Positions 2,510 through 14,485 of a stretch of 64,000 nt of DNA are shown in pieces (position 1 is the first letter of the stretch; each line of letters begins with the position of its first letter). Origin of the DNA: a bacterium (GTDB taxonomy: Bacteria; Sysuimicrobiota; Sysuimicrobiia; Sysuimicrobiales; Segetimicrobiaceae); contig DATGHU010000023.1 of assembly GCA_035307765.1 (NCBI GenBank), positions 62,001 to 126,000 on the forward strand. Reading direction: 5' to 3'. The notes beneath the pieces are model-generated. The model saw only the letters and a program-made list of their open reading frames with translations. It made no database searches and was not told the origin of the DNA. Position numbers and translations under genes: made by a program.

Positions 2510-2789
2510 CCGCGGCCGCCTCGCTACGCCGAAGACAAGGCAGACCTTCACGATCCGCTCGCGCCGGTGTTGCCGGCGCAACAGCGCCCCCGCACCACTC
2601 GTGCTACGCTCCCCCTAACAAAAAGTCTCGCAGGCGGCTCTGCAGCCTATGAGCGGGTGTGCCGGTACCCGGGCACGACGTTCGCTGTAGGGCCTCGGGC
2701 GGATGGAAAGGGGCGCGCCCGAGATCCCCGTTTGGGGGGATGGAGAGCGCGAACGGTGTCCGTGACGTCACGGCCGGGGGTGAATCGTG
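2510..2789. other. Intergenic region, no gene seen
   Basis: This 280-base gap separates the MFS exporter from the diheme cytochrome. It contains a short inverted repeat (ATCCCC at 2724-2729 with GGGGAT at 2736-2741) too weak to call a terminator, and a GGGGGTGA ribosome-binding site at its 3' end. I see no convincing promoter or small gene. Confidence 0.4.
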
Positions 2790-4142
2790 ATGAACCGTAA
2801 GTTCCTGCTCCGGGGTGCGCTCATCGTGGTCTGCCTCGGCTTCGCGCTGACGTTGATCTCCGGCCGGATCCCCAGCGGTCCCGTCGCCACGGCACAAGCG
2901 CCCACGCCGACGGAGTTCGACCGCGTGATCAGCCAGAATGCACAGCGGATGATCGAGGAGGGCAGGAGGACTTTTCGTTACGACACCTTCGGCGATGAAG
3001 CCTGGTTTGGGGATACGCTCAAACTCCATCAGGCCATCGAGGGAGCGAAGCACGGCGGCGTGGGACCCGGGGTGAGCCCGAAGACCGCCCTGGCCGTGGG
3101 GTTGAAGGTCGATATGGACGCGCTGCCGCCGGCGCTGGTGGCGCAGGTCAAGGCCGGGAAGGTTGACCTCGACGATCCCGCGACAACCCTCGCCCTCCTC
3201 AAGCTCAATGCGGTCGTGGGCGTGACCGGATTTTTTCAGGCGGGCGGGAGTCTGCGGTCGGTGGGAGTCCAGTGCGCCTTTTGTCACTCCACCGTCGACG
3301 ACGCGTTTGCCGCCGGGATCGGCCACCGCCTGGACGGCTGGGCGAACCGCGATCTGAACGTGGGGGCGATCGTGGCGCTGGCTCCGAACGTGAAGGTCAT
3401 CGCCGACGTGCTAGGGGTCGATACCGCCACGGTGCTGAAGGTGCTCAACAGTTGGGGCCCGGGGAAATATGACGCGGAGCTCATCCAGGACGGCAAGGGC
3501 CTGCGCCCCGACGGCAAGTCCGCGGCCACCCTCCTCCCGGCGGCGTTTGGGTTGGCCGGGGTGAATCTCGCCACGTACACGGGATGGGGGTCGGTGACGT
3601 ACTGGAACGCGTATGTGGCCAACACGCAGATGCACGGGATGGGAACCTTCTTCGATCCCCGGTTGAACAATGCGAAGCAATTCCCAGTCGCGGCGAAAAC
3701 CCACTACGGCAATATTCGAAACGCTCCCGACGAGATCACCTCGAAGCTGGCCGCGCTGCACTTCTATCAACTGGCGATTCCGGCCCCCACGCCCCCCGAG
3801 GGGTCATACCAGAAGGAGGGGGCGGCGAGGGGAAAGATTCTGTTCGAGGGCAAAGCGCAGTGTGCCATCTGCCACGTGCCGCCGCTGTATACGGAGCCGG
3901 GGTACAATATGCATACCGCGGCGGAGATGGGCATTGACAATTTCCAATCGAACCGGTCCCCCGATAAGCGGTACCGGACCACGCCGCTCCGCGGCCTGTG
4001 GACCCACCAGAAAGGCGGGTTCTTCCATGACGGCCGGTTTCCGACCTTACAATCGGTTGTCGCGCACTACAATACGACGCGCAATTTGCATTTGACGGAT
4101 CAGGAGATCCTCGACCTCGTCGAGTTCCTGAAGTCGCTGTGA
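2790..4142 (+). CDS. Exported diheme c-type cytochrome, cytochrome c peroxidase/MauG-like
   Basis: About 450 residues with an N-terminal signal peptide (basic MNRK, hydrophobic core, Ala-rich end). Two heme c attachment motifs are visible: CAFCH near residue 165 and CAICH near residue 355. The C-terminal segment TTPLRGLWTHQKGGFFHDG followed by FPTLQSVVAHYN resembles the end of diheme cytochrome c peroxidases and MauG, where conserved residues surround the second heme. It should act outside the cytoplasmic membrane, and its hemes would be attached by the Ccm proteins encoded just downstream. The ATG at 2790 has GGGGGTGA 7 bases upstream; a GTG at 2787 is an alternative. Peroxidase activity is not established. 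Confidence 0.8.
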   Translation: MNRKFLLRGALIVVCLGFALTLISGRIPSGPVATAQAPTPTEFDRVISQNAQRMIEEGRRTFRYDTFGDEAWFGDTLKLHQAIEGAKHGGVGPGVSPKTALAVGLKVDMDALPPALVAQVKAGKVDLDDPATTLALLKLNAVVGVTGFFQAGGSLRSVGVQCAFCHSTVDDAFAAGIGHRLDGWANRDLNVGAIVALAPNVKVIADVLGVDTATVLKVLNSWGPGKYDAELIQDGKGLRPDGKSAATLLPAAFGLAGVNLATYTGWGSVTYWNAYVANTQMHGMGTFFDPRLNNAKQFPVAAKTHYGNIRNAPDEITSKLAALHFYQLAIPAPTPPEGSYQKEGAARGKILFEGKAQCAICHVPPLYTEPGYNMHTAAEMGIDNFQSNRSPDKRYRTTPLRGLWTHQKGGFFHDGRFPTLQSVVAHYNTTRNLHLTDQEILDLVEFLKSL

Positions 4143-9029: not shown

Positions 9030-9323
9030 GGCATTTCGTGCGCGCCTCCGCACGCGCTCGTCCCGCCGCCCGGGATTCGAGGAAGGAGACGGGGGGGCGT
9101 TCATGGAAGAAAAACATCCCGCGCGCTACGGGACGCTTGCGATTGCGCCCTTCTGCGTCCGGATGGAAACCGGAACGCGGATCGTGCGGCGTCGCTTGCC
9201 GGTGTTTCCCGTGACGTCGGTGCCCGGCGTCACGGTCGGAGGGGGCTGCGCCGATCGAGCGAGCGCCGGAGGATCGGCCCACCGCCCGGATGGGGCGGAT
9301 GGGCGATGGAGGACAGCATCGGC
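9030..9323. other. Intergenic region before the bc-like operon
   Basis: Roughly 290 bases without a supported gene. A frame starting at ATG 9103 runs into the next gene in another frame and has no family features. I could not identify a consensus promoter, though transcription of the following operon may well start here. Confidence 0.35.
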
Positions 9324-10199
9324 ATGCGGTTGCGGAATTTCGAGGCCGGGCCTGGAGCGCTGCTGGTACTGATCGCCTCGGTCGCCCTCGCCGGATGTCA
9401 GCCCTCGGTGAATGTCTCGGATGCCAAGGTCGACCGGCGGCTGCCGCCCCCGCAGTCGGTCGAGATCCCGTTGGTCACCGACGAGAACGAACAGCCGATT
9501 GTCCCGGACGCGGTCAAGGGGAAGCAGGTCTTCGAAGCGAACTGTGCGGTCTGCCACGGGATGAGCGGAACGGGAAACGGCCCGATGTCAAAGTCGCTCG
9601 TCGCCCCGGACATCGACGTCCTCACCGCGTTCCTGGGCTTGTTTGGGATCACCCTGCACCGCACGCCCCTCCCCAGTCACCCCGCCGACTTCACCAATCG
9701 AGATCTGGAGAACGTCATCTCGCCGGCGATCCTGTTTGAGACCGTCACCGAGGGGCGGCCGCATACGGCGATGCCGGCGTTTGGCCCGGAGGCGTCCTTT
9801 GGGGCGAACAAGGCGCAGACCCTCAAGAACGAAGAGCGGTGGGATGCCAACGCGTACGAGATGACGTTCCGCACCAACCCGGCGGAACTGAGCGCGGCGA
9901 AGGCGTTATACGATCAGCAGTGCGCGGTGTGCCACGGGGAGAACGGCGACGGCAAAGCCCCGCGCGGCTCAGAGATGGCGGCCGAGCTGTGGTCGTGGTC
10001 CCGCGGGGAAGGACCGGGGATCTTCACCGACCTCAACTACATTGTGCAGCGGAACCCGAGCGAGCTCACCAACGCCATCCTGGACGGGCAGGGGTTTGGG
10101 CTGATGCCCGGCTATCGGGGGAAGCTCACGACGGGGCAAATCAACGGGCTGGTGGACTACATCTACTCGTTCTTCTACAAGCACCCGCCGATCAAGTAG
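9324..10199 (+). CDS. Diheme c-type cytochrome lipoprotein of bc-like complex
   Basis: About 291 residues with a lipoprotein signal: MRLRN, a hydrophobic stretch and lipobox VALAGC (Cys25). Two class I cytochrome c domains follow, each with CAVCH (near residues 74 and 202); the spacing and the MSGTGNG and ENGDGKAP loops are typical. Likely distal Met ligands lie in TAMPAFGP and GLMPGYRG. It should accept electrons from the Rieske protein encoded next and pass them to a terminal oxidase or soluble carrier. ATG at 9324 is preferred because GGAGG precedes it; an in-frame ATG at 9306 would add six residues. Confidence 0.9.
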   Translation: MRLRNFEAGPGALLVLIASVALAGCQPSVNVSDAKVDRRLPPPQSVEIPLVTDENEQPIVPDAVKGKQVFEANCAVCHGMSGTGNGPMSKSLVAPDIDVLTAFLGLFGITLHRTPLPSHPADFTNRDLENVISPAILFETVTEGRPHTAMPAFGPEASFGANKAQTLKNEERWDANAYEMTFRTNPAELSAAKALYDQQCAVCHGENGDGKAPRGSEMAAELWSWSRGEGPGIFTDLNYIVQRNPSELTNAILDGQGFGLMPGYRGKLTTGQINGLVDYIYSFFYKHPPIK

Positions 10200-10242
10200 T
10201 ACAATTGGGCGGGCAGGGCGATGCGAGGAGGCGTTGGGGACG

Positions 10243-10878
10243 ATGAAGGCTGATCGACGGGGCTTGCTGAAAGCGCTCACCGCGCTTCCGGTGCTCGGTG
10301 GGCTGATCGCGATCCTGTCCCCGTTCTTTCGCTATCTGAAGCCCAACGACCAACCGTGGGGGATCTTCACGGTGGCCCCCGACACCCCGAAGGGCGGAGC
10401 CCAGATCGTGGGGAAGACGACCGCGCTGCAGAAGCCGTGGGACTCGTTCTACTTCACGTACGTCCAGAAGTACGTCCAGTACGACCCGACAGGGTTCAAG
10501 GCCGCCAACATCCCGGGGGTGGCGATCCGGCTGCCCCAGAAGGTGAAGTTCACGAACGTCCAAGGGTTCGTCGGGTACGACGGGGAGACCGACATCGTGC
10601 TCTTCCAGCGGATCTGCCCCCACCTGGGCTGCATCTTCGACTACGTCCCCGTCTGGCAAAACGTCACCTCGGGGTACGGCGGGTTCACCCCTCCCGCGAA
10701 TGAGCAGCATTCGCTGATGGCGTGTCCCTGCCACTTCAGCATCTACAATCCCGCGTATCCGGGCGATCCGGGAAACGTCATCTCGGGCCCGGCGCCGCGC
10801 GGGGCGCGCTACTTCCATTTCACGATCGATGGCGAGAACATCGTCGTGGACGGCGCGGAACTCGGCGGGATCGCGTGA
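10243..10878 (+). CDS. Rieske [2Fe-2S] protein of bc-like complex
   Basis: 211 residues. The N-terminus has a twin-arginine-like motif (DRRGLLKAL) followed by one hydrophobic helix, as in Rieske proteins exported folded by Tat and left anchored in the membrane. Cluster ligands are visible: Cys125 and His127 in CPHLGC, and Cys161 and His164 in CPCHF. Cys130 and Cys163 form the usual disulfide. Between the two halves lies a longer insert than in the shortest family members (about residues 131-158). The protein takes an electron from quinol and passes it to cytochrome c. The ATG at 10243 has GAGGAGG upstream. The tatA gene is also in this window (15754). Confidence 0.93.
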   Translation: MKADRRGLLKALTALPVLGGLIAILSPFFRYLKPNDQPWGIFTVAPDTPKGGAQIVGKTTALQKPWDSFYFTYVQKYVQYDPTGFKAANIPGVAIRLPQKVKFTNVQGFVGYDGETDIVLFQRICPHLGCIFDYVPVWQNVTSGYGGFTPPANEQHSLMACPCHFSIYNPAYPGDPGNVISGPAPRGARYFHFTIDGENIVVDGAELGGIA

Positions 10879-10933
10879 TGCCGCCCCGAGCGCAGGCGCG
10901 TCGGGAAGACCTCAGGGCGTAGGGAGGGGACCC

Positions 10934-12079
10934 GTGCAGGCGGTGCTGGCAGATCTCAAAGAGTGGTTCCAGGATCGCAAGGCGCACCTGGACCTCTTTG
11001 ATGAGACGAAGACCGCGCAGCTCGACAACCCGCTGTACAGCCTCGGCGGGCTGGTCTGGCTGTCGTGGATGGCCGTGATCGTCTCGGGGGTCATCCTGAT
11101 GCTGTGGTACATCCCGACGACGACCGGCGCCTACCGCTCGATTGAGCACATCACCTACGACATCCCGTTCGGTTGGCTGGTGCGCGGGGTTCACAAGTAT
11201 GCGGCGGACATGCTGATCACCTGCATCACGCTGCGCATCTATCGGATGTACTTTGCGGGAGAGTACAAGAAGCCGGGCGAGCTCTCGTGGATGATTCTCT
11301 TCGCCTCGCTCGTGCTCGGGATGATCTCCGGGATCAGCGGCTACCTGCTGATCTGGAACCAGCGGGCGTTCTGGGCGGCGAAGGTCGTGCTGACGGTGCC
11401 GACCTATTACGATGACATTCCCATCCTCGGCAACCTGGGGCTCGGCCGGGCGATCGCGTTCATCTTCCTCGGCGGCCCGGCCGTCAGCCAGGCGGCGATC
11501 ACCCGGTTCTACGCGATTCACTTCGGCATCTCCGTCGTGTTCGCGATCCTGGCGGAGGTCTTCTTCTACCGCACGCGGCGGCGTCGCCTGAACCTCTCCC
11601 CGTTTGTCATCGTGCTGGTGATCGCGTTCCTGGCGTGGGTGAGCTTCGAGCGCATCACGGACATGGGGCGGTGGGCCAACCCCAACCGAACGCCGCTCCC
11701 GATCCTGTCCGACTGGTACTTCCTGGCCCTCTACCAGCTCGTGAAGTACATGCCCCCGCTGTGGGCCGGCATCGCCCCGGCGCTGCTGATCGGGTACGGC
11801 ATGCTGGTCCCGTTCCTGGACCGGACGAAGGAGACCGGGCCGCTGGAGCGTCCCTTCTTCTTCGTCGTGGGCCTCTTGTCGCTGTTCTACTTCATCGCGT
11901 TCACGGCGCTGATCATGCTCAACATCGCCGTGATCAGCCGCGATCCACCGATCATCCTGGTCGTGACCGTGGTCGTCTTGGTGCTGGCCTTCGCCTGGGA
12001 GATTGCCTACCGTCGACGTAAGGCCCGACGGGCGACGGCGCCCCCTGCGCCGGCGCGGGCGGCCGCGGCGGGGGACTGA
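10934..12079 (+). CDS. Cytochrome b of bc-like complex lacking the bH heme ligands
   Basis: 381 residues with about eight transmembrane helices. The first four correspond to the cytochrome b/b6 core, and the rest resemble subunit IV. His87 (VRGVHKYAAD) and His196 (FYAIHFGI) sit where the two ligands of the outer heme bL normally occur. The positions 14 residues later, which should hold the two ligands of heme bH, are Arg101 (TLRIYRMY) and Phe210 (AEVFFYR). The quinol-site PEWY motif is replaced by SDWYFLALYQ. Thus only one b heme is expected. The start GTG at 10934 follows AGGGAGGGGA. It is the first of two cytochromes b in the operon. Confidence 0.88.
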   Translation: MQAVLADLKEWFQDRKAHLDLFDETKTAQLDNPLYSLGGLVWLSWMAVIVSGVILMLWYIPTTTGAYRSIEHITYDIPFGWLVRGVHKYAADMLITCITLRIYRMYFAGEYKKPGELSWMILFASLVLGMISGISGYLLIWNQRAFWAAKVVLTVPTYYDDIPILGNLGLGRAIAFIFLGGPAVSQAAITRFYAIHFGISVVFAILAEVFFYRTRRRRLNLSPFVIVLVIAFLAWVSFERITDMGRWANPNRTPLPILSDWYFLALYQLVKYMPPLWAGIAPALLIGYGMLVPFLDRTKETGPLERPFFFVVGLLSLFYFIAFTALIMLNIAVISRDPPIILVVTVVVLVLAFAWEIAYRRRKARRATAPPAPARAAAAGD

Positions 12080-12083
12080 CGCG

Positions 12084-12401
12084 ATGCGGCGGAAGGCGCG
12101 CTTTTACGCGCTGCTGGTCCTGGCGACCGTGGGGCTGAGCCGCCTGCTCGCTGCGTGGCGGGCCTGGCGTGCCGCGCCCACGCTGGAGGGCGGCCTGGTG
12201 GTGGCGGCCTTCGGCCTCGTGGTGGTCGGCGCGATCCTCTGGCTGGGGTTCGTGCTCTACGAGGTGGACAGGGCCGCCGGTCGGGTTCGCCACCGGGTCG
12301 GCGTGTACGAGTGGATCCTCGCCCGCCGGGTGGGGGCGCGGCGTCCGGATCTGGGCTGGCCGGAAGCGCCACGGACTCGGCCGGCCGGCGGCGGGAGGTG
12401 A
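12084..12401 (+). CDS. Small membrane protein in bc-like operon
   Basis: A 105-residue protein with two predicted transmembrane helices (about residues 7-25 and 37-60) and a basic Arg-rich C-terminal tail. No cofactor-binding residue pattern is visible. It starts 4 bases after the first cytochrome b, has GGGGA upstream, and overlaps the start region of the next small gene. By position it is probably an accessory subunit of the complex. No family recognised. Confidence 0.7.
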   Translation: MRRKARFYALLVLATVGLSRLLAAWRAWRAAPTLEGGLVVAAFGLVVVGAILWLGFVLYEVDRAAGRVRHRVGVYEWILARRVGARRPDLGWPEAPRTRPAGGGR

Positions 12402-12406
12402 GCGGC

Positions 12407-12601
12407 GTGGACGATCGGACGGCGGGGTACGGGACGTGGATCGCCGTTCTCGCTGTCGTCAGCCTGGTCTGCGTCGTCGGGATGGTGTGGGGTGAACTGA
12501 CCAGCCATCGTCTCGTCACCGGGGGGCTGATCGGCGTCGTGCTGCTCGCGTACTCCTTCATCCTGTTGTTCCTGCGCAAGGGAGGGTTTACGGGTGTATA
12601 A
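12407..12601 (+). CDS. Small two-helix membrane protein in bc-like operon
   Basis: 64 residues with two transmembrane helices separated by a short polar turn (WGELTSHRLVTGG). The GTG at 12407 is chosen because GGGAGGTG ends 6 bases upstream; a GTG at 12398 would be inside that site. Its stop overlaps the start of the cytochrome b-ferredoxin gene by 8 bases, which points to coupled translation and a subunit role. No family recognised. Confidence 0.65.
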   Translation: MDDRTAGYGTWIAVLAVVSLVCVVGMVWGELTSHRLVTGGLIGVVLLAYSFILLFLRKGGFTGV

Positions 12602-13769
12602 GCGGCTCCTGGCGCGCCTCCTGCGGTGGACGTTGAAACTCGACGTGGCCATCAACCGTGTCTACCCGGAGGATTTCAATCCCCTGTACTATACGGGAGG
12701 GCTGTCCAACCTCTTCCTCACGGTCCTGGTGCTCTCCGGGATCTTCCTGTTCTTCTACTACGTGCCGTCCTTCAACGACGCCTACACCTCGGTGCAGTAC
12801 ATCTCCGATCAGCTGCCGCCGCCCGCCCAGGTGCCGTACGGACAGATCATCCGCGGCATTCACCGCTACGCCGCCGATGGGTTCATCATCGTCATCCTGC
12901 TCCATTTCTTCCGGAACTGGTTCACGGAGCGATTCCGGTTCTCCCGCGATGAACCGTGGATCAGCGGCATGATGCTGCTCGTCTTCGCCGGCTTCATCGG
13001 CGTGACCGGGTACGTGTTGGTCTGGGACCAGCGCAGCGAGTTGATCGTGGCGATGACGGGGAACGCGTTGGGGTCGGTGCCGTGGGTGGGCGGATGGCTG
13101 CGCTCCGTCCTGTTCGGGGGGGAGGGGGTGACCAACCTGCTCCTGCCGCGGATGCTGTTCCTCCACGTTGGCCCGGCGACCGCGCTGTACGTCCTGCTGT
13201 GGTGGCACTACGTGCGCATCCGCCACCCCAAGGTCTGGCCGCCGGCGGTATGGACGCTGTTCTCGGTGGGGCTGATCCTGCTTCTTACCGGGTTGGTCCC
13301 CGCGGTCAGCCAGCCTTCGGCCTCGGCGGGGTCCACGCCTTCCCGCCTCGCGCTCGACTGGTTCTTCCTCCTCCCGTACGCGAGCCTTCAATACCTCCCG
13401 TCGCTCGGGCTGATCCTGCTCGCCGTCGTCATCGTCGCCTACGGGCTGTACATCCCGTACCAGCTGCCCGAGACCGAGCGGGAGCTGGGGATGCGGGACT
13501 CCGGGGTGGCGCAGGTCATCGACGCCAACTGCACGGGGTGCGAGCTCTGCTACTACGACTGCCCGTACGACGCGATCGTCATGGTCCCCACCCCGCATCC
13601 CGGCGTGACGAAGGCGGCCCAGGCCCGGAAGCTCCTGGCCATCGTCCTGGAGTCGCGGTGCGTGGAGTGCGGGATCTGCATCGGTGCGTGTCCCTTTGAA
13701 GCGCTGGAACTGCCCCACTACCTGGAATCGGACGTCCACGAAAAGGTGCTGGCCGCATGCCGGAGCTAG
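12594..13769 (+). CDS. Cytochrome b fused to a 2[4Fe-4S] ferredoxin domain
   Basis: 391 residues. Residues 1-290 form a cytochrome b-like membrane domain with all four heme ligands present at the right spacing: His90/His104 and His191/His205. A short segment with ALDWFFLLPYA occupies the place of PEWY. Residues 305-391 are a bacterial-type ferredoxin domain on the cytoplasmic side, with Cys313/316/319/323 (CTGCELCYYDCP) and Cys356/359/362/366 (CVECGICIGACP), enough for two [4Fe-4S] clusters. The start is GTG at 12594. The gene overlaps the following MvhD-like gene by 13 bases. I infer that electrons leave the inner heme to the clusters rather than only to quinone. Confidence 0.9.
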   Translation: MYKRLLARLLRWTLKLDVAINRVYPEDFNPLYYTGGLSNLFLTVLVLSGIFLFFYYVPSFNDAYTSVQYISDQLPPPAQVPYGQIIRGIHRYAADGFIIVILLHFFRNWFTERFRFSRDEPWISGMMLLVFAGFIGVTGYVLVWDQRSELIVAMTGNALGSVPWVGGWLRSVLFGGEGVTNLLLPRMLFLHVGPATALYVLLWWHYVRIRHPKVWPPAVWTLFSVGLILLLTGLVPAVSQPSASAGSTPSRLALDWFFLLPYASLQYLPSLGLILLAVVIVAYGLYIPYQLPETERELGMRDSGVAQVIDANCTGCELCYYDCPYDAIVMVPTPHPGVTKAAQARKLLAIVLESRCVECGICIGACPFEALELPHYLESDVHEKVLAACRS

Positions 13770-14305
13770 GGTCGACCCAGAAGCCCGCCCCCGGGGCGGG
13801 GACCCCGCCGGGGACGTCCTCCCACCGTCCCAAGATCGTCGGCTTCCTCTGCGACTGGGCGGTGAGCGCGGAGGGGTTAATCCGCGAGGACGGGACGATG
13901 CGCGATCTTCCCAACGTCACGTTGATCAGGGTGATGTGCTCGGGGTTCATCCGGCCGGCGTGGCTGGAGTTCGCGCTGCGGAACGGCGCGGAGGGAGCGT
14001 TCGTCTGCGGGTGTCCGCTCGGGGACTGCTTCAACCGGTTCGGGAACAACTTGATCGGCGACCGGGTTCTCCAGATGCGCCGGCGGCTCGAACGGCAAAA
14101 GATCCACCCGGACCGGGTGGCGACGATGTATTTCGGACTGCACGCCCAGGCCGAGTTCGTCACCGCCGTTCGGGAGTTCAGCGACCGCGTGGCCGGCCTG
14201 CCCGGCCCCGTCACGCCCCCCGCGCGCCCGGCGGCGCGCGCCGGCGCCCCCGGACAACCCCCCGCCGCGCGCCGCTCCGACGCGGGTGGGGAGGAGGGCG
14301 CGTGA
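13757..14305 (+). CDS. MvhD/FrhD-like hydrogenase-type iron-sulfur subunit
   Basis: 182 residues. The central region matches the MvhD family (small Fe-S protein linking [NiFe]-hydrogenase to heterodisulfide reductase in methanogens): GFLCDWAVSAEG, then IRVMCSGFIRPAW, then GAEGAFVCGCPLGDC. Cysteines 32, 61, 84, 86 and 91 are retained, but the second Cys of the usual CxWC pair is Ala35. The ends are Pro/Ala-rich and probably flexible. No hydrogenase or HdrA gene is nearby, so it likely serves the cytochrome b-ferredoxin fusion, whose gene it overlaps, as an Fe-S relay to a soluble partner. Confidence 0.85.
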   Translation: MPELGSTQKPAPGAGTPPGTSSHRPKIVGFLCDWAVSAEGLIREDGTMRDLPNVTLIRVMCSGFIRPAWLEFALRNGAEGAFVCGCPLGDCFNRFGNNLIGDRVLQMRRRLERQKIHPDRVATMYFGLHAQAEFVTAVREFSDRVAGLPGPVTPPARPAARAGAPGQPPAARRSDAGGEEGA

Positions 14306-14439
14306 TGGCGGAGCGCACGCCGTCCGGTCAGGCCAGGAGGCGATCGGCCGCGGTCCAATGGAAGTACCTCATCTTTTGGCTACTCCTCTTCGGCACGCTG
14401 TTCTTCATCTCGCTCTACGGCATCGTGGCGGAGGCGTAA
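14305..14439 (+). CDS. Single-helix small membrane protein at end of bc-like operon
   Basis: 44 residues: a basic N-terminal part followed by one transmembrane helix (YLIFWLLLFGTLFFISLYGI). Its ATG overlaps the stop of the MvhD-like gene (TGATG), and a strong hairpin follows 5 bases after the stop. Small single-helix subunits are common in bc1 and b6f complexes, so this is probably another accessory subunit. No homology can be claimed. Confidence 0.65.
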   Translation: MAERTPSGQARRRSAAVQWKYLIFWLLLFGTLFFISLYGIVAEA

Positions 14440-14443
14440 CATC

Positions 14444-14485
14444 GCCGCCCCGCCCCGGTGGGGCGGGGCGGCGACCGTCTTTCTC
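14444..14485 (+). terminator. Hairpin terminator after bc-like operon
   Basis: GCCGCCCCGCCCC (14444-14456) and its perfect complement at 14460-14472 form a 13-bp stem with a GGT loop, followed by a pyrimidine-rich, T-containing stretch (GTCTTTCTCTCCCC). It closes the respiratory operon. Confidence 0.8.

Follow-up and report, generated by a model that had tools for sequence, protein, structure and literature searches.

A cytochrome b-ferredoxin fusion encoded beside a Rieske-linked cytochrome b without inner-heme ligands: a putative asymmetric bc-type complex in Sysuimicrobiota

Introduction

The crossing of electrons between the two halves of bc-type complexes has been tested with engineered asymmetric dimers. 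In Rhodobacter cytochrome bc1, the H212N substitution removes heme bH and the G158W substitution blocks the Qo site; cross-inactivated dimers, which combine a half without bH and a half without a working Qo site, turn over via bL-bL transfer, whereas a bH knockout does not (PMC4330944). A further variation on the bc theme has been described in anammox bacteria, where the low-potential branch of the Rieske/cytochrome b-NAD(P) oxidoreductases (Kuste4569-4574 and Kustd1480-1485) has been proposed to exit on the n-side via Fe-S clusters (PMC12954380). Among the heterodisulfide reductase-type complexes, the HdrCBA-MvhD complex of Sporomusa sits at the membrane (PMC9430772).

Here, we analysed a window of 64,000 nucleotides from a genome of Candidatus Sysuimicrobiota, starting from an open reading frame (ORF) in which a cytochrome b with all four heme-ligand His had been predicted to continue into a ferredoxin with eight Cys. 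The bacteria of this phylum (Candidatus Sysuimicrobiota, CSP1-3) live in soils and hot springs and are uncultured. The fusion, designated b2-Fd, is encoded in one operon with a cytochrome c, a Rieske protein, a second cytochrome b (b1) and an FlpD protein.

This locus shares with the bc1 and b6f complexes the Rieske protein, the cytochrome c, the cytochrome b fold and the Qo motifs, the last of these on b1. Unlike those complexes, it encodes two different cytochromes b, one (b1) without n-side heme ligands and the other (b2) without Qo motifs but with a C-terminal 2[4Fe-4S] domain; FlpD is encoded alongside. Its likeness to the anammox complexes lies in the combination of Rieske protein and cytochrome b with a proposed n-side Fe-S exit for the low-potential branch. 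However, the anammox enzymes have a homodimer of b6 plus subunit IV and a separate NAD(P) reductase, whereas the present locus has a cytochrome b-ferredoxin fusion, FlpD and two dissimilar cytochromes b, and no NAD(P) oxidoreductase subunit was found among the operon genes. In the Hdr/Mvh complex of methanogens, the C-terminal module of HdrA2 and MvhD/FlpD show the same order of 2[4Fe-4S] domain and FlpD, but the window's genome is without the HdrA flavoprotein, and the module is joined to a cytochrome b instead. The cross-inactivated bc1 dimers resemble the arrangement proposed below in that Qo and bL alone are left in one half, while the other keeps both bL and bH but has a disabled Qo; in contrast to them, the present case is a natural gene pair with an extra Fe-S exit, known from its genes, and its heterodimer is a prediction. 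In our search of the open-licence literature, we found neither this gene cluster nor a natural Rieske-linked cytochrome b that lacks n-side heme ligands; a description elsewhere is possible. Within that literature, what would be new is an asymmetric Rieske complex whose cytochrome b halves complement each other and which has a ferredoxin on the n-side; the parts themselves are known.

Gene organisation of the operon

The operon lies on the forward strand, downstream of Ccm cytochrome c maturation genes that were named from their ORF sequences. Upstream of the ccm genes, positions 2787-4142 encode a protein weakly resembling MauG and di-heme cytochrome c peroxidases. A diheme c-type cytochrome (9306-10199) with an N-terminal lipobox (LAGC), two CxxCH motifs and matches to Pfam Cytochrome_CBB3/Cytochrom_C occupies a conserved position, and this lipoprotein probably accepts electrons from the Rieske protein. 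The Rieske [2Fe-2S] protein (10234-10878) carries the ligand motifs CPHLGC and CPCH and was matched by NCBIfam Cytb6fFeSPetC (9e-9) and Pfam Rieske (0.0016). Cytochrome b1 (10934-12079) combines b6 and subunit IV in one chain and contains the Qo motifs FWAAK and SDWYF; its start is likely the GTG at 10934, as the listed ORF start at 10829 would overlap the Rieske gene. Two small membrane proteins of 105 aa (12084-12401) and 64 aa (12407-12601) follow, both without a family match and both conserved in position, and the end of the second overlaps the start of the b2-Fd gene (12594-13769). The gene of the FlpD/MvhD-like [2Fe-2S] protein (13757-14305; PF02662, 3.9e-24) overlaps the fusion gene by 13 bases. 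Its stop codon is in turn overlapped by the start of a gene for a 44-aa single-TM protein (14305-14439), which is present in close relatives. A strong intrinsic-terminator-like hairpin of 15 bp (14442-14474) closes the operon.

The gene order of the operon is conserved across Sysuimicrobiota, including the linkage of the Rieske protein and cytochrome c with a cytochrome b (9306-12079). In every intact locus examined, b1 and b2-Fd were neighbours.

The cytochrome b2-ferredoxin fusion and FlpD

The b2-Fd gene is open over 391 codons, with a GTG start and a GGAGGG ribosome-binding site upstream. In Pfam searches, residues 23-210 were assigned to Cytochrome_B (6e-30), and Fer4/dicluster ferredoxin families matched residues 302-372, within a ferredoxin domain of residues ca. 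302-374; several 4Fe-4S dicluster families were matched, and Fer4_7 and Fer4_9 were above the cut-off. The four heme ligands H90, H104, H191 and H205 (codons starting at 12861, 12903, 13164 and 13206) were invariant in 34/34 sequences from the phylum and in 27/27 deltaproteobacterial relatives. The ferredoxin domain has the two CxxCxxCxxxC(P) groups of a 2[4Fe-4S] ferredoxin, C313/316/319/323 and C356/359/362/366, and these eight Cys were kept in the same 34 and 27 sequences, except for one Ser in one sequence. The Pfam matches and the conservation of the ligands thus bear out the original prediction of a complete four-His cytochrome b continuous with an eight-Cys ferredoxin. Both domains are found in the one ORF, and three further phyla have proteins with the same domain order.

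An AlphaFold2 model of b2-Fd was built on a 110-sequence alignment; an earlier model from 17 sequences had a pLDDT of 40. The model shows six TM helices (A, 30-55; B, 83-110; C, 120-143; D, 183-208; E, 218-234; F, 270-290), with pLDDT mostly >90 in the cytochrome b part and about 35-66 in the ferredoxin domain, and its closest structural match was mycobacterial QcrB (Z 26). Compared with b6 plus subunit IV, b2 is without the last helix of subunit IV, so that the chain exits helix F on the cytoplasmic side and the ferredoxin comes next. When the established topology of the family is applied to the six-helix model, the ferredoxin domain is predicted to be cytoplasmic (n-side), where it had been expected. 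The ExtP selenite/tellurite cytochrome b model NF040969 scored 135.6 bits against b2-Fd, under its equivalog cut-off of 290 bits.

FlpD matched MvhD of the Hdr-Mvh complex (5odc_D) at 2.2e-19. Its cluster quartet, Cys 32, 61, 86 and 91, was kept in all relatives in which the region was aligned, which is the conserved [2Fe-2S] Cys pattern of the HdrA/MvhD module. In NCBIfam alignments, the ferredoxin of the fusion aligned with residues 568-640 of HdrA2 and FlpD with residues 644-770. Since the two match HdrA2 568-770 in order, together they are equivalent to the HdrA2 C-terminal module, here carried by a cytochrome b. HdrA, the usual partner of FlpD, was not found in the window's genome (96% complete), where the best HdrA2 match was the ferredoxin and FlpD pair itself. 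An Hdr/Mvh hydrogenase cluster was rejected because of this absence and because the only FlpD of the genome is that of the operon. No FlpD-docking flavoprotein was found among the operon genes. A path from the inner heme to soluble Fe-S carriers, as first proposed, keeps its plausibility as a link to cytosolic Fe-S chemistry, but the chain would not stop at the ferredoxin and would run on into the FlpD/MvhD [2Fe-2S] protein.

Heme ligands and Qo motifs of b1 and b2

In b1, the p-side heme ligands are retained as an invariant pair of His (codons 11192-11194 and 11519-11521). The n-side ligands are replaced in the window by Arg (11234-11236) and Phe (11561-11563), and all 28 distinct b1 sequences have Arg at the position of b6 His100 and Phe, Tyr, Leu, Trp or Met at that of b6 His202, with an invariant Glu two residues ahead of the latter. 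Thus, none of the 28 b1 sequences has an n-side His, while the four ligands of two hemes are found in 34/34 b2 sequences. Of the four His in the b1 of the window, two lie outside the heme-binding helices. The window's genome encodes another Rieske-linked cytochrome b, in a canonical Rieske/cytochrome b-c cluster (L186, contig C10) that adjoins an aa3-type oxidase, and this protein, which served as an internal control for the His loss in b1, keeps all four His. An alignment slip as the cause of the loss was rejected on the basis of this control and because the helices concerned contain no other His.

The Qo motifs were distributed in the opposite manner. At the cd1 position of the Qo site, b1 and ordinary cytochromes b have W-[A/G], whereas b2 has a bulky Leu, Ile or Val; the Tyr of the PEWY-type motif was present in 23/23 b1 sequences and is Phe or Leu in b2. 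Both the PEWY-type motif and the cd1 [FY]W[AG] motif are therefore found on b1, and neither is found on b2-Fd. As judged from these residues, b1, with Qo and the ligands of the p-side heme only, is complementary to b2, with the ligands of both hemes and a degenerate Qo. In a phylogenetic tree, b2-Fd grouped with the fusions of other phyla (support 0.997) and b1 with ordinary cytochromes b; on these two groupings, an origin of b2 by recent duplication of b1 was rejected.

Quinone binding at the outer site of the fusion is doubtful given its degenerate motifs, and the original prediction had overlooked a putative quinol-oxidising partner, namely the second cytochrome b, which is encoded with Rieske and cytochrome c and appears to be without an inner heme.

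Occurrence in Sysuimicrobiota and other phyla

Fusions with 54-86% identity were present in 37/43 genomes of the phylum, with the same ORF, domain order and neighbours. The objection that a frameshift or a chance join had produced the fusion was rejected, as the fusion is conserved both within and outside the phylum. Two of the six genomes without b2-Fd are incomplete (89% and 85%), and the other four represent one genus (G008-G011), in which the complex and any COX1/heme-copper oxidase gene are absent, and MvhD-type FlpD copies and complex I are kept. Complex I was found in 43/43 genomes.

In eight Sysuimicrobiota loci (L037:5349-6737 on the minus strand, L033, L050, L051, L053, L054, L056 and L061), a CcoN/COX1-like membrane protein is encoded directly after FlpD, and a FixO-like monoheme cytochrome c comes next. 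The CcoN/COX1-like protein has no conserved His; a working cbb3-like oxidase was rejected on that ground, and the protein is a putative pseudo-oxidase subunit.

Outside the phylum, cytochrome b, ferredoxin and FlpD form a single chain of about 510-530 aa (cytb-Fd-FlpD) in 'Deltaproteobacteria' MAGs, in Pseudomonadota (33/398 sampled genomes) and on a Defluviimonas plasmid. A chain extended by a further domain was found in 11/400 sampled Chloroflexota genomes; four of these chains (L206-L208 and L210) end in a cytochrome c and keep the Cys at FlpD, and two (L209 and L211) have lost the FlpD cluster Cys. Among 22 cytb-Fd-FlpD chains checked, four His were present in 22/22 and eight ferredoxin Cys in 21/22, and degenerate Qo motifs were seen in these chains as well. 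The relatives are thus alike to b2-Fd in domain order, His, Cys and Qo, but FlpD is fused in them and eNOR-type subunits, usually with SCO1, replace Rieske, b1 and cytochrome c. Their operons contain COX2- and COX1-like genes. Wherever the motif was readable, the COX1-like protein had Gln in place of the cross-linked Tyr of oxygen reductases (GH[SP]xQQ), the published eNOR signature, whereas the oxidase of the window's genome reads GHPEVY there. Such eNOR-linked loci include L062:3402-9136, L137:4942-11060, L203, L204, L205 and L213-L215, and sometimes carry a heme O synthase gene too.

By gene neighbourhood, the module goes with an eNOR-type enzyme outside Sysuimicrobiota and with Rieske and b1 inside it. 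Possibly, cytb-Fd-FlpD is an unrecognised electron-transfer subunit of eNOR. Since the relatives lack Rieske and b1 and lie beside an eNOR-type enzyme, the ancestral job of the module was probably not quinol bifurcation. Two adjacent cytb-Fd-FlpD copies, both with all four His, occur in L063, L199, L200, L201 and L202, and these could form heterodimers too.

Discussion

The reading that we prefer, with a probability of roughly one half, is that b1 and b2-Fd pair in an asymmetric Rieske/cytochrome b complex, with b2-Fd as the half that is wired to the n-side and ferredoxin and FlpD acting as the wire. It is suggested by the loss of n-side ligands in 28/28 b1 sequences, the retention of all b2 ligands in 34/34 and 27/27 sequences and the adjacency of the two genes in every intact locus examined; the presence of b2-Fd in relatives without Rieske and b1 counts against it, as does the failure to find a gene for a FlpD-docking flavoprotein in the operon. 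Also in its favour are the contrasting Qo residues of b1 and b2, the HdrA2-like order of ferredoxin and FlpD, the conserved FlpD Cys quartet, the predicted cytoplasmic side of the ferredoxin, the position of b2-Fd in the tree as a family distinct from b1, and the bL-bL transfer seen in cross-inactivated bc1 dimers. In such a complex, b1 and b2 would each contribute one half of a bc-type dimer, and menaquinol would be oxidised on b1. One electron would pass from the quinol on b1 to the Rieske protein and the diheme cytochrome c, and the other would pass from the outer heme of b1 to the outer heme of b2 by bL-bL transfer and then to the inner heme of b2. From there, it may reduce quinone at the inner site, as in an ordinary Q-cycle, or pass through the two [4Fe-4S] clusters and the FlpD [2Fe-2S] cluster to a soluble flavoprotein. 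Reverse flow along the same wire would bring cytosolic electrons to quinone. The output direction would resemble the proposal for the anammox Rieske/cytochrome b complexes. More tentative, and somewhat more apt to fail than to hold, is the full form of this reading: a natural, obligately asymmetric heterodimer with three b hemes, which oxidises quinol on one half only and passes the low-potential electron across the outer hemes, part of the flow leaving via ferredoxin and FlpD, that is, a quinone-based bifurcation to Fe-S carriers.

The direction of flow is where the preferred reading meets its strongest competitor. Electrons may instead enter from a cytosolic flavoprotein through FlpD and the ferredoxin clusters to the inner heme of b2 and quinone, which would make the fusion a ferredoxin/NAD(P)H:quinone reductase mounted on a bc complex, similar to cyclic electron flow into b6f. 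By analogy, this direction suits the eNOR-linked relatives better than output does, as cytosolic input is the simplest role for a chain without Rieske, and b2 is without Qo motifs everywhere. We nevertheless regard input as possible but doubtful in Sysuimicrobiota, since it leaves unexplained the loss of the inner heme in b1, which forces the low-potential electrons of b1 into another chain. Complex I, moreover, already occurs throughout the phylum, which leaves no clear need for quinone input by the b2-Fd route and, in the output direction, none for NAD(P)H production by it; this counts against both readings.

It is also conceivable that b1 and b2-Fd share an operon but are parts of separate complexes, b1 and Rieske then working as a quinol:cytochrome c oxidoreductase that has one heme and no Q-cycle. 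We infer the pairing of b1 with b2 from sequence, and b2-Fd-FlpD occurs without b1 in other phyla, both of which leave room for such a separation. However, a half with the outer heme only would have no exit for the second electron of quinol, and bc1 with bH knocked out does not sustain normal turnover (PMC4330944). Strict adjacency together with complementary losses in 28/28 sequences is hard to call a coincidence, and we consider two separate complexes unlikely. A sensory or regulatory role, in which the fusion would signal the redox state of the cytosol to the bc complex rather than serve as a main electron path, is very improbable, as the conservation across phyla of all heme ligands, the eight ferredoxin Cys and the FlpD Cys quartet fits an electron path.

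If the asymmetric complex holds, a whole phylum appears to carry such a pair naturally, and the question of electron crossing between halves could therefore be tested on a natural enzyme. A ferredoxin-FlpD wire that draws on the inner heme would add a path from quinol-level electrons to low-potential carriers in the cytosol, whereas one that feeds electrons in would supply the quinone pool in a new way. At least four phyla have proteins of the cytb-Fd-FlpD type, which are unnamed in databases; the sole annotated record examined is called just 'cytochrome b N-terminal domain-containing protein'.
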